From: Candidatus Gastranaerophilales bacterium
Lineage (GTDB): Bacteria > Cyanobacteriota > Vampirovibrionia > Gastranaerophilales > Gastranaerophilaceae
NCBI GenBank assembly: GCA_944325095.1
Contig: CALUYV010000007.1
Location: 1-42,675 of the forward strand
Length of the DNA stretch: 42,675 nucleotides
Reading direction: 5' to 3'
Made by a program: the position numbers and the translations under genes. Below are positions 13,785 through 18,152 of this stretch, in pieces. Each line of letters opens with the position of its first letter. The stretch's first letter is position 1. The notes beneath the pieces were generated by a model. It was not told the origin of the DNA. It did no database searches and saw only the letters and a program-made list of their open reading frames with translations.

Positions 13785-14258
13785 ATGAATTTAAATTCAG
13801 CAAGAGTGAGAATAGAACAAACAGAAAAGTACACCGGCAATTATGTATCTGATACAATTATTGCGGAGAACACGGTCATTGAAGGCGGTTTCATACAGGA
13901 AAAACCGATTACCATTCAGGAAATGTTTGTACGAAGAATAAATAAAGCTTTAGGGTTTTGTATTACGGTTGCTATTAGTGTTACATTCATCAGTTATTAT
14001 ACGGCAATGAACTGTGAAGCAAAGTTGAATAAACTTGACAGCGAGATTGTCAGACTGAATGCGGAAAATCAAGATTTGCAGGCAGAACTTGATAAATTTC
14101 AGTCTTTTAACAATGTTGATGATAAAGTTGAAGAATTTAATCTTTTGAAAAAAGCGGATAAAGTTCTTGAAATTACTGCATTAAATACTGATAAAAAAAC
14201 TATTTCTCCGATTAACAAGCCGGTTAATAATAATTTTGACTGGGCTATAGGTTACTAA
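13785..14258 (+). CDS. FtsL-like membrane protein with coiled coil
   Basis: 157 residues: a polar N-terminal cytoplasmic region of about 55 residues, one membrane helix (about 60-80, ALGFCITVAISVTFISYYTA), then a coiled coil (KLNKLDSEIVRLNAENQDLQ) and a short tail. This topology, plus the position directly after rsmH, matches FtsL/DivIC division proteins, which bridge FtsQ and FtsI/FtsW at the septum. Sequence in this family is poorly conserved, so the call depends on topology and synteny. The usual next gene, ftsI, is absent. Confidence 0.6.
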   Translation: MNLNSARVRIEQTEKYTGNYVSDTIIAENTVIEGGFIQEKPITIQEMFVRRINKALGFCITVAISVTFISYYTAMNCEAKLNKLDSEIVRLNAENQDLQAELDKFQSFNNVDDKVEEFNLLKKADKVLEITALNTDKKTISPINKPVNNNFDWAIGY

Positions 14259-14321: not shown

Positions 14322-15296
14322 ATGGTTATGGCGGAAGAAATAAAAGAAAAATTCAGCAGAATATACAAAGAGCAGTTTGTACCTTTTTTACAGCCATTAG
14401 AAGATGAGCGTCTAGCTGTTAATAAAAAAGTACAGCCGTTAAAAAATATGATGGGGATTTTCGCCTTATTATGCCTTGCATCTATGTTTAATAAAACAAT
14501 AATATTCAGTGATTATATATTAATCATAAGTTTTTTGGGGCTTTTTATATGCACCGGTATTTCCGGAGGTTATACCAGAAAATGGAATATTGAAATAAAA
14601 CGGAAAATAACCTCTAAACTGCTTCCGTTATTCGGGAATTACCACTTTTCTCAAAATAAAAATTTAATTACTCTTGATGAAATTAAAGTATCAGGTCTAT
14701 TCAAAAGGGCAGATAAAAAAGTAGATGACGATGTAATAATCGGGTACTATAATGGCTGTAATATTGTCATAAATGAGTGCAATATTTGTAATAGCAAAGA
14801 AAAATACGGCGATTATTTTAAAGGAATAATTGTAAAAGCAGCAATGAAAAAGAATTTCAAAGGGCTTACGGTTTTAGGCTCTCCCTATACATTAGCACCT
14901 GTTTCCGGTACAGAAATCGTAGAACTTGAATCGATAGATTTTATGAAAAACAGAAAAATATATTCTACAGATCAGATTGAAGCGCGGTACATTTTAACAA
15001 CCTCGTTTATGGAAAAACTTGACCGGATAGCAGTGATATTTAATGCAAAGGTCTTAAAGGGAAAAAATAATAACGCAAATCTGGAAAAAGGACTTAATAA
15101 TATGAACCTTCGCACAAGTGCTATTTTTTATAAAGGCCATGCATACTTATTTGTTCCTTCTATTAGCAATTTATTTGAATTAAAATTAAATAAAACATTG
15201 TATGATGAGAATACATATTCTGTTATCTTTGAACAATTATCTGCAATTCAGGACATAATTGATTACCTGAATATTGATAAAAATACGGGATTATAA
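14322..15296 (+). CDS. DUF3137 family membrane protein, first of a tandem pair
   Basis: About 324 residues. The N-terminal cytosolic part (IYKEQFVPFLQPLEDERLAV) is followed by two membrane helices (about residues 44-81), then a globular region with the DUF3137-like pattern: VSGLFKRADKKVDDD, a buried FKGIIVKAAMKKNFKGLTVL stretch, and VELESIDFMKNRKIYSTDQ then EARYILTTSFMEKLDRI. Function is not known for the family. The start is ambiguous: ATGs at 14322 and 14328 are both possible and the upstream AGG is weak. A close paralog follows 14 bp downstream. Confidence 0.75.
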   Translation: MVMAEEIKEKFSRIYKEQFVPFLQPLEDERLAVNKKVQPLKNMMGIFALLCLASMFNKTIIFSDYILIISFLGLFICTGISGGYTRKWNIEIKRKITSKLLPLFGNYHFSQNKNLITLDEIKVSGLFKRADKKVDDDVIIGYYNGCNIVINECNICNSKEKYGDYFKGIIVKAAMKKNFKGLTVLGSPYTLAPVSGTEIVELESIDFMKNRKIYSTDQIEARYILTTSFMEKLDRIAVIFNAKVLKGKNNNANLEKGLNNMNLRTSAIFYKGHAYLFVPSISNLFELKLNKTLYDENTYSVIFEQLSAIQDIIDYLNIDKNTGL

Positions 15297-15310: not shown

Positions 15311-16321
15311 ATGACTGAAAACGCAAAAGACGAATTCCATAAAATATACAAAGAGAAAATCGAACCGTTTTTACAGCCTTATGAAGATGAGCGCATAGCA
15401 ATTGATAAAAAAAGTAAAGAATTAAAACCTTTTATAATAATTTCTATTATTTTAATTATCGCTTCTTTTATAATGCCACAAATTATTACATCAGCACTTT
15501 TTATTAGCATCTGCCTCGGAATTGCTGCACTTTTATGCCTTATTATCTGTACAAAAACACTACTGCAGCGCACCGGCAATATGAATAAGAAAGTAAAACA
15601 ACAAATTACCCGCCAGATACTTCACTCATTGGGGGATTATCAATTTTCACAGAACAAAAATTTAATTACTCTTAAAGAAATTCAAAATTACGGGCTATTT
15701 AAAAATACGAACAATATAAAATACTATAAAAATGATGATGATATTATAACCGGAACCTGCAGCGGCTGCAGCATAGTAATTAATGAATGCCAAATAGAAA
15801 CGGATTCATCAAAAAGCGGCAGTTGGTCAAATTTTCGAGGAATAATTATTAAAGCGGCAATGAAAAAGAAATTTTCCGGATTAACCGTTTTCGGCTCTGA
15901 TATTTATATGACTCAAGTACCGGGTACAGAACCGGTTGAGTTAGAATCTATTGATTTTATGCTCAACAGAAAAATTTACACAACCGATCAGGTTGAAGCA
16001 CGGTATATTTTAACAACCGCTTTTATGGAAAAACTCGATAAAATTGCTCAAGTATTTAACTCACAATACCTGACAATTCAAAACAGCAAACTTGACAATC
16101 CAAAAGCTAAAGAAATATATAACAGATTAAATTCTCCGCTTAACGCAGTTTTCTATGAGGGTTATGCATATTTGTTTATTTCCAGTTTTGATAATCTATT
16201 TGAAATAACACCTCAAAAGACTTTTTATGATGAAAAGATATACTATAAAGTATATGAACAACTAATAACAATTCAAGATTTAATTTGTTATCTAAATATT
16301 GATAAAAATACAGGATTATAA
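15311..16321 (+). CDS. DUF3137 family membrane protein, second of a tandem pair
   Basis: 336 residues, preceded by AAGGAG. Collinear with the previous gene throughout: the N-terminal IYKEKIEPFLQPYEDERIAI, two membrane helices (about 44-78), SQNKNLITLKEIQNYGLFK, IIIKAAMKKKFSGLTVFG, VELESIDFMLNRKIYTTDQ, EARYILTTAFMEKLDKI, and an identical end YLNIDKNTGL. It differs by small insertions around residues 135-165. It arose by tandem duplication, with considerable divergence in the N-terminal membrane region. The function is unknown; a paired or hetero-oligomeric role is inference. Confidence 0.78.
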   Translation: MTENAKDEFHKIYKEKIEPFLQPYEDERIAIDKKSKELKPFIIISIILIIASFIMPQIITSALFISICLGIAALLCLIICTKTLLQRTGNMNKKVKQQITRQILHSLGDYQFSQNKNLITLKEIQNYGLFKNTNNIKYYKNDDDIITGTCSGCSIVINECQIETDSSKSGSWSNFRGIIIKAAMKKKFSGLTVFGSDIYMTQVPGTEPVELESIDFMLNRKIYTTDQVEARYILTTAFMEKLDKIAQVFNSQYLTIQNSKLDNPKAKEIYNRLNSPLNAVFYEGYAYLFISSFDNLFEITPQKTFYDEKIYYKVYEQLITIQDLICYLNIDKNTGL

Positions 16322-16800
16322 AAACATGCTCCTAATGCGGGGCTAAGATGCAAAACGACATTGAAACTCTTTCCACATCGGGGATGGATAGGGTAGGGAG
16401 CGGTTACACATTGTCATTTCGGTTGGATTTTCGGTAGGGCGATGAGTGAGCGAATGCGAACCAAGCCCGTAAGGTGGAGGGAAACGATGAGTTTTCCGAC
16501 AACCCGAATAATCCAAATGCGACCCGGAATTGCATAGTTGAACGAATTACAAGTGTTTTTTGTTCCCTCTCCCGATGGGGAGAGAGTTAGAGTGAGGGGT
16601 TGAAATATTTGTCACTCTGAACTCGTTTCAGAGTCGCATAGTTGGACGAATTGCAAAGGACAGAATGAATTTAAAACCCTCTATACTCGTATAGGACTCC
16701 GTGTCAAGCACGGAGTGACACATTGGGAGTAAACCCTTACGGGACACTCCCCATCCCAGCCTTCTGGCAACCTTGACTTAATTCAGTAACTTGCAAAAGA
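16322..16800. repeat. Repeat-dense intergenic region
   Basis: About 480 bp with no credible gene and clearly higher GC than its flanks. It contains a 21-bp direct repeat with 2 mismatches (16532-16552 and 16636-16656, core GCATAGTTG-ACGAATT); a stem CTCTCCC/GGGAGAG (16567-16584) followed by GTTAGAGTGAGGGG; and two hairpins of one repeat family in opposite orientation, 16611-16635 (GTCACTCTGAAC...) and 16694-16719 (minus strand GTCACTCCGTGC...). Such GTCA-C/T-TC hairpins and CCCTCTCCC repeats are widespread as dispersed intergenic repeats in bacteria. An imperfect long inverted repeat may also span about 16402-16506. Confidence 0.6.
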
Positions 16801-16831: not shown

Positions 16832-16896
16832 CATACTAAAGTATGAAATTTTTGTAAATAAATTAAAGTTTTCAAAATTATTGCCGTATATATAAT
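16832..16896 (+). promoter_or_regulatory. Promoter and palindrome upstream of the HD-GYP-like gene
   Basis: TATAAT at 16891-16896 lies 16 bp after TTTTCA (16869-16874), with the chosen ATG at 16926. The inverted repeat CATACT-AA-AGTATG at 16832-16845, flanked by AAATTT-like arms, sits just upstream and may bind a regulator. Confidence 0.45.
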
Positions 16897-16925
16897 TAAT
16901 AGAAGGCATGCAAAAAGGAAAATTT

Positions 16926-18152
16926 ATGGATAAAGAAGAGAAGAAAACAGGTGTTTCGTTATTCGGACAATCAGAAAACCTGACTCCGATAGAGGAGATG
17001 TTTGCCCTGAATCTGGGTGACTTTATATCTGAAACACTTATCTCAGAAGATTTAGCAAAGAAAATAAGCATTACCGCCAATAAAAAAGACAGACTGAAAA
17101 ATCAGTTATTAGAGTTGATAGAAATCTATTCTTCAAAAAATACTCTGTGCGTTTTGAATTTTACGCAGGGCGAAGAGCAGGCTATATATACTTCAATAGC
17201 ACAATCAATTGTAGAAATGATTGAAGTAAAAAGATGTACGATTTATCTTGTAAAAGACGGGAATCTGACTCCTGTCGGAATGTCAGACGAAATAACAGAA
17301 GAAAATCCGGTGACTTTGCCGGATCTATTACACAATGACACCATAGAAAAAGGAAATCGTTTATTTGTACCAATGAGAGGTGCCGCAACAGCAGCCGGTA
17401 TGATAGAAATTTCAAAAGAAAATTCTTTGGAGGATGATTTCACAGAACTTTTGATAAGTATTGCAAATCTTCTTGGTACAACTATAACGCTCCAAAACGA
17501 AATAGAAAATGTAAACAAAAGGTTAGCAAATCCGGAAACTACCGAAATTGAATTAAAGCAATCAAGAGCAGAATTAACAGCATTAATCGGTGAATTATGC
17601 GACAATCAGCAGAATTTTGTAGAATCTCTTGCCAGTGCAGTTGACAGAAAAGGACAATATACAGTTTCTCACTCAAGAAATACGGCAAAACTTGCAAGAA
17701 ACATTTGCAAAACATTAGGTTTAAACGAAAAAACTACAGATTTAATCTATTATGCAGGATTGCTGCAAAACATAGGTAAAATCGTTCTGCCGGAAAGAAT
17801 TTTCGCAACAAACGGTAAATTAGCACCGGAAGAACTCAAAAAAATACAAAACCACTCAAATATAGGTGTAAATCTGCTGATGAACATCAATTTCTTATCA
17901 GAAGTTGTACCGTATATAACTTACCAGACAGAAAGAGTAGATGGTTCCGGCAAGCCGGAAGGTTTAAAAGGACAATCAATTCCGCTCGGCTCAAGGATTA
18001 TTGCAGTTGCCGATGCGTATTCTGCAATGACATCAGACCGTCCGTACAGAAAAGCAATGACACCTGATGAAGCAATCAGTATTATGACATCAGAAATCAA
18101 TACAAAATGGGATAATGATGTTATAAATGCACTTATAAAAACTGTTAAGTAA
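16926..18152 (+). CDS. GAF-like plus degenerate HD-GYP domain protein
   Basis: 408 residues from the ATG at 16926, chosen because AAGGA lies 7 bases upstream (an ATG at 16908 is also in frame). Order: N-terminal helices, a GAF-like sensor (about 65-190, VLNFTQGEEQAIYTSIAQSI...), a coiled linker, and a C-terminal HD-GYP domain (about 225-408). Active HD-GYP enzymes hydrolyse cyclic di-GMP using metal-binding His and Asp. Here the first His (SHSRN, 249) and the His of NHSNIG (310) remain, but the HD pair is Gln-Asn (LLQNIGK, 281-282), the HHE is YQTE (333-336) and GYP is GKP (342-344). The domain is therefore probably catalytically dead and may act as a sensor or scaffold. The fold is otherwise well kept (VADAYSAMTSDRPYR). 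Confidence 0.85.
   Translation: MDKEEKKTGVSLFGQSENLTPIEEMFALNLGDFISETLISEDLAKKISITANKKDRLKNQLLELIEIYSSKNTLCVLNFTQGEEQAIYTSIAQSIVEMIEVKRCTIYLVKDGNLTPVGMSDEITEENPVTLPDLLHNDTIEKGNRLFVPMRGAATAAGMIEISKENSLEDDFTELLISIANLLGTTITLQNEIENVNKRLANPETTEIELKQSRAELTALIGELCDNQQNFVESLASAVDRKGQYTVSHSRNTAKLARNICKTLGLNEKTTDLIYYAGLLQNIGKIVLPERIFATNGKLAPEELKKIQNHSNIGVNLLMNINFLSEVVPYITYQTERVDGSGKPEGLKGQSIPLGSRIIAVADAYSAMTSDRPYRKAMTPDEAISIMTSEINTKWDNDVINALIKTVK

Follow-up and report, generated by a model that had tools for sequence, protein, structure and literature searches.

The protein encoded at positions 16926-18152 of the window, as we call the whole 42,675-nucleotide stretch of DNA analyzed here (contig CALUYV010000007.1 of a Candidatus Gastranaerophilales bacterium), combines a GAF domain with a degenerate HD-GYP domain that has almost certainly lost c-di-GMP phosphodiesterase activity. 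The retained c-di-GMP contacts, together with the precedent of the metal-free protein DvhD, favor the reading that this dead HD-GYP protein is soluble and dimeric and acts as a receptor for c-di-GMP or a closely related nucleotide such as 3'3'-cGAMP, a reading to which we assign about an even chance. An entire order of gut bacteria shares this loss as a fixed trait, and the gene that carries it appears to belong to the core set.

The gene (plus strand) and its parts are as follows.
16869..16896, +: promoter-like site TTTTCA-16-TATAAT; 10/12 consensus matches, a weak signal (10 sites against 7.0 expected in shuffles)
16926..18152, +: pseudo-HD-GYP coding sequence, 408 amino acids; alternative start at 16908, AAAAGGA just 5' of the ATG at 16926
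16974..17075, +: clade-specific N-terminal helical motif, residues 17-50, consensus DPxEEIFALNLGDFxSEHLISEDLAxKI
17142..17513, +: GAF domain with a shortened core, residues about 73-196; from profile and structural Z of 8-10 to GAF domains
17433..17651, +: stalk helices that link the GAF and HD-GYP domains, residues 170-201 and 207-242; assigned from secondary structure in the AlphaFold2 model
17610..18149, +: degenerate HD-GYP domain, residues 229-408; from Pfam and the HD domain model (pLDDT 90.5)
17766..17771, +: Q281-N282, replacing the HD diad (PmGH H221, D222) in the alignment
17925..17930, +: Q334-T335, replacing the metal-binding HH pair (PmGH H276, H277) in the alignment
17952..17954, +: K343, replacing the GYP tyrosine (PmGH Y285, DvhD Y621); conservation rank 338 of 408
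18039..18050, +: R372-P-Y374-R375, guanine/phosphate-contact residues kept (PmGH R314, Y316, K317; DvhD R650, Y652, R653)
18093..18095, +: E390 (DvhD E668, base-specificity contact); acidic in 83/83 pseudo rows

A second in-frame ATG lies upstream, at 16908, but 16926 is the better start because it is preceded by AAAAGGA and because the nearest orthologues begin with MDKEEKK or MDREEKK. The consensus match at 16869..16896 weakly suggests that the gene may have its own promoter. The HD-GYP assignment comes from the Pfam profile HD_5 (E=1.4e-42); GAF_3 matches at 7e-5, under its cut-off, and the GAF domain was confirmed with a profile built from the orthologues, of which 39/83 match PF01590. These are the only two domains in the 408-residue protein. 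The best NCBIfam match is the NosR family NF053512, at 138.2 bits against a cut-off of 400, which places the protein outside that family, and neither Pfam nor NCBIfam names a separate family for its clade.

In PmGH of Persephonella marina, a tri-iron phosphodiesterase, the iron ligands are E185, H189, H221, D222, H250, H276, H277 and D305; alanine mutations of these residues abolish activity, or strongly reduce it in the case of E185 and D305, mutants of D183, D308 and K225 have an effect similar to that of the ligand mutants, and Y285A, R314A and K317A hardly affect catalysis (PMC4159591). At the eight ligand positions, in the same order, the alignment gives Y, H, Q, N, H, Q, T and D for the window protein. 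Tyrosine at the E185 position is usual in the bimetal subgroup of HD-GYP domains, so the real losses are the four metal ligands H221 (to Q), D222 (N), H276 (Q) and H277 (T), plus D183 (G), D308 (S) and Y285 (K); H189, H250, D305, K225 and R314 are kept, and the K317 position holds an arginine. The original prediction had read the HD pair as Gln-Asn and GYP as GKP, and both readings hold, all of the motifs that it quoted being encoded by the open reading frame on the plus strand (LLQNIGK, YITYQTERVDGSGKP, SHSRN, NHSNIG and VADAYSAMTSDRPYR). Its equation of the HHE motif with YQTE is right in that the HH pair is replaced by Q and T, but the four residues align as Y-Q-T-E with the glutamate kept. 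The prediction that several metal ligands are gone is borne out by the four losses, to which D183G and D308S, at positions needed by PmGH and missed previously, have to be added. Since H221, D222, H276, H277, D183 and D308, at each of which a single alanine change cripples PmGH, are all replaced, the loss of phosphodiesterase activity that had been proposed is the expected outcome.

The pattern of residue loss is far beyond chance. The motifs were read in 83 distinct aligned orthologue sequences, as distinct from every genome, and compared with a control set of 53 HD-GYP domains drawn largely from the phylum of the window protein and chosen to be intact at H221, D222, H276 and H277, with Y285 and the remaining columns playing no part in the choice. 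Each of these five residues is 100% conserved in the control domains; in the orthologues, H221 is kept in 6%, D222 in 0%, H276 in 34%, H277 in 1% and Y285 in 0%. The other columns that are at least 90% conserved in the control and largely lost in the pseudo clade are L233 and K235 (34% kept), the latter being 98% conserved in intact enzymes and corresponding to T295 of the window protein; E243 is kept in half of the clade and is otherwise mostly D. The remaining columns of this class, including R314, D305, H189, H250 and L239, are 87-100% kept. This contrast indicates that the loss is focused on the metal site and its neighbors while the fold residues stay.

Other HD-GYP variants occur in the phylum (L195, L186, L188 and L172), in which H189 and the HD histidine are changed (RCD, RSD) and HH and GYP are kept; one aligned row within this group differs at nearly all ligands. 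These variants suggest that HD-GYP domains have degenerated repeatedly within the phylum.

A strong orthologue was found in 140/146 Gastranaerophilaceae genomes searched, the other six all being less than 90% complete, and orthologues also occur in the remaining families of Gastranaerophilales as well as in two families of the class outside that order; the photosynthetic cyanobacteria searched yielded just much weaker, generic HD-GYP matches. An intact relative was sought among the orthologues, and D222 is present in 0/83 rows. The substitutions are fixed in the relatives: D222 is replaced in 83/83 rows, by N in 75/75 rows from Gastranaerophilales and by S, T, N or H in the eight rows from the two outer families, and the GYP tyrosine occurs in 0/83. 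H276 is kept in 26/33 outer Gastranaerophilales rows (YHKE) and lost in the subclade of the window protein (YQTE or YQKE), so the decay of the metal site probably went in steps. The partial site invites the question of whether a hydrolase persists on fewer metal ligands, namely H249, H310 and D363, plus the H276 equivalent where kept. Although the equivalents of H189, H250 and D305 are retained in 93-99% of the pseudo rows and that of H276 in most of the outer ones, the equivalents of D222 and H277 are gone in essentially all rows, PmGH is inactive without either, and DvhD, which lacks a similar set, hydrolyzes nothing with any ion tested; we regard residual hydrolysis as very unlikely.

The window comes from a fragmented draft assembly (1.79 Mb, 113 contigs, 89% complete), which could raise the suspicion of a sequencing or assembly error, a lone case or a decaying pseudogene. 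Such explanations are ruled out, to the point of having hardly any probability left, by three full-length orthologues from independent assemblies (L036, L037 and L038) that are 82-85% identical and carry the same substitutions, by orthologue reading frames that are open, without stops, and by a dN/dS far below 1 (about 0.03-0.07 for the HD domain against the closest relatives, with synonymous sites near saturation). These substitution rates point to strong purifying selection on the HD domain.

In the domain tree, the 83 pseudo domains fall on one side of a branch (SH-aLRT 98), and the grouping persists, with support of 66, when the active-site columns are removed; a single origin of the clade is likely. 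The N-terminal segment (residues about 17-110) is found only in this protein among 146 genomes of the class, and an intact relative sharing this module was not found among the same 146 genomes. The N-terminal part, described earlier as a GAF-like sensor, does have that fold (structural Z of 8-10 against GAF domains), but a sensory pocket is doubtful because the GAF core (C104-G158) is shortened to about 55 residues in the genus of the window protein; in most other Gastranaerophilales genera and in deeper members it spans about 89-102 residues.

The full-length AlphaFold2 model is mediocre (pLDDT 69.8), with the GAF domain, stalk helices and HD-GYP domain visible; the HD domain was therefore also considered as modeled alone with a deeper alignment (pLDDT 90.5). 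The top match of the latter model is c-di-GMP-bound DvhD (9rbz; Z 23.2, rmsd 3.1 over 193 residues, 31% identity), with PA4781 (4r8z; Z 23.0) and PmGH (4mcw; Z 22.6, 197 residues) next to it and Bd1817 further off (Z 16.6, rmsd 6.3). The matches to inactive and active HD-GYP structures are tied, and the modeled structure alone chooses neither.

DvhD, in which HD is replaced by SQ and HH by MN, binds no metal and hydrolyzes nothing with any ion tested, yet it binds c-di-GMP metal-free with a Kd of 99 nM through Y523, L577, K582, Y621, M646, R650, Y652 and E668; R650A or Y652A/R653A impairs stabilization by c-di-GMP, and the protein also takes 3'3'-cGAMP (501 nM) and, weakly, pGpG (PMC13090378). 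The equivalents in the window protein are, in the same order, Y245, L299, L304, K343, M368, R372, Y374 and E390. Six of these eight contacts are identical, as is R375 at the position of R653; the two that are not kept, K582 (L304) and Y621 (K343), are both phosphate contacts. R372 and R375 are invariant (83/83 rows), and L299 is nearly fully retained. At the E390 position each of the 83 pseudo rows has an acidic residue (78 E, 5 D), against E in 5/53 intact domains, and in a second alignment the position is acidic in 57/57 pseudo against 6/48 intact domains, a contrast that represents one event in one clade, such that a Fisher p-value overstates independence. The invariance of R372 and R375, equivalents of which hardly matter for catalysis in PmGH, is consistent with retention of the ligand and not of the chemistry. 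In PmGH, too, the GYP tyrosine contacts phosphate; its position is unconstrained in the clade and often holds Glu, which would repel phosphate; the loss of this tyrosine and of the K582 equivalent argues for an altered or weaker putative site. DvhD does not group with the pseudo clade, 9rbz joining another sequence on long branches (support 88), and because it falls elsewhere in the domain tree, the ligand losses in DvhD and in the clade of the window protein look independent.

Two other accounts of the conserved residues have to be weighed against a c-di-GMP receptor. A ligand-free pseudoenzyme scaffold, in which the dead HD-GYP domain binds and regulates a GGDEF cyclase or an intact HD-GYP protein without any nucleotide, is a serious if somewhat unlikely alternative: HnoD, which suppresses the phosphodiesterase HnoB, is a precedent, a similar role has been proposed for NosR, and possible partners, several GGDEF proteins and intact HD-GYP proteins, are encoded in the genome. 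A set of almost invariant clade-specific residues that differ from intact HD-GYP domains (N267, K269, T270, D272, Y275, N312, V315, N322, F323, Y330, S351 and K394) could form an interface, and the loss of the phosphate-contact tyrosine at a now unconstrained position also speaks for a scaffold. A scaffold leaves unexplained why, among the nucleotide-contact positions, R372 and R375 are fully retained, L299 is almost always kept and residue 390 is acidic throughout the clade. The other account is that the ancestral pocket now receives a different ligand (pGpG, GMP, 3'3'-cGAMP or some other nucleotide), having been re-tuned following loss of the tyrosine that binds phosphate. In its favor, the base contacts are kept amid changes at the metal ligands, at the GYP tyrosine and at the positions of K235 and K582, and the tolerance of DvhD for 3'3'-cGAMP and pGpG points the same way. 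The GGDEF proteins of the genome, however, make c-di-GMP the obvious ligand, and we consider a re-tuned pocket of this kind distinctly unlikely.

If the protein is a c-di-GMP receptor, it would, without a metal centre, leave c-di-GMP unhydrolyzed, and the nucleotide would dock between the two claws through Y245, L299, M368, R372, Y374/R375 and E390. Binding might then splay or lock the stalk helices of the dimer, as in DvhD, and the change in the stalk could alter the presentation of the shortened GAF domain and the N-terminal helical motif to a partner.

The genome contains eight matches to GGDEF (six strong), one PilZ domain, MshEN domains and further HD-GYP proteins, two of which seem intact; no EAL domain was detected in it. 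Given the GGDEF, intact HD-GYP, PilZ and MshEN domains, c-di-GMP is probably made in this bacterium, and a receptor would have something to read. A second degenerate HD-GYP protein in the same genome (L003, G000:C23:17709-18836) has the architecture GAF-GGDEF-HD-GYP; in it YD (YDIGN) replaces HD but HH and GYP are unchanged, and two other genera (L208 and L209) show this H-to-Y change as well.

Upstream of the HD-GYP gene lie rsmH, an ftsL-like gene, two DUF3137 genes and then a 590-base gap that holds a dispersed repeat and the promoter-like site.
13785-14258: short protein after rsmH with a weak match to DivIC (septum formation initiator), probably FtsL-like
14322-15296 and 15311-16321: pair of tandem DUF3137 genes, lying between the ftsL-like and HD-GYP genes
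The related loci L036-L038 lack DUF3137 genes at that place. No named RNA element was found in the 590-base gap at Rfam gathering thresholds. The dispersed intergenic repeat (16640-16790) has 24 matches in the genome, mostly partial, and probably breaks the assembly, since several of the matches lie at contig ends. A conserved operon partner was considered and rejected: rsmH and the ftsL-like gene are upstream only in the subclade of the window protein, and elsewhere in the clade the neighbors differ (metX/metW-like, ABC transporter and lipoate-ligase-like, or dnaG/rpoD-like genes, named by eye from sequence), such that no conserved neighbor names a partner across the clade.

The broadest version of the receptor reading holds that a core gene found throughout Gastranaerophilales, with relatives in two other families of the class, arose once and codes for a c-di-GMP receptor that works without metal and derives from a GAF/HD-GYP enzyme. 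Lacking the GYP tyrosine, the receptor would bind by way of an acidic base contact specific to the clade, and it would signal through the N-terminal helical module, possibly to cell division. The last element is conceivable because the gene follows rsmH and the ftsL-like gene in the subclade of the window protein; taken as a whole, this version is rather doubtful. The protein is a first candidate c-di-GMP output for Gastranaerophilales; the literature collection searched contained no paper on HD-GYP in Melainabacteria, and a full-text search of it found none naming both Gastranaerophilales and c-di-GMP. The clade also provides a large natural data set on which HD-GYP residues serve sensing as opposed to hydrolysis, the metal ligands and the GYP tyrosine going and the arginines and the acidic base contact staying.

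Among known systems, PmGH (4mcw; PMC4159591) shares the GAF-stalk-HD-GYP architecture with the window protein but is an active tri-iron phosphodiesterase in which H221, D222, H276, H277, Y285, D183 and D308 are all present. PA2572 of Pseudomonas aeruginosa resembles the window protein in that HD is replaced, with N at the aspartate, and it has no detectable activity but still regulates phenotype (PMC3411652); it differs in having a receiver domain instead of GAF and, being described as YN-GYP, in keeping the GYP motif. HnoD and NosR (PMC6335343, PMC12570481) are likewise degenerate HD-GYP proteins, thought to act on other c-di-GMP enzymes, but they are response regulators with other motif changes, and the score of the window protein against the NosR family, its best NCBIfam match, is 138 for a cut-off of 400. 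Bd1817 (3tm8, 3tmc; PMC4159591), itself an inactive HD-GYP protein, also lacks the GYP tyrosine, but it differs in its retained di-iron centre and closed lid. DvhD (9rbz, 9rc0; PMC13090378) shares with the window protein a degenerate HD-GYP domain and the contacts Y523, L577, M646, R650, Y652, E668 and R653; unlike the window protein, it is a membrane protein with a periplasmic dCache and a cytoplasmic PAS domain and keeps the GYP tyrosine, whereas the window protein has a GAF domain and neither that tyrosine nor K582. Among the inactive HD-GYP proteins found, DvhD (2026) is the only one for which a structure demonstrates a non-enzymatic role as a receptor for c-di-GMP. Inactive HD-GYP proteins are thus already known (PA2572, HnoD, NosR, Bd1817 and DvhD), and the clade of the window protein is a distinct, previously undescribed, lineage-wide variant.
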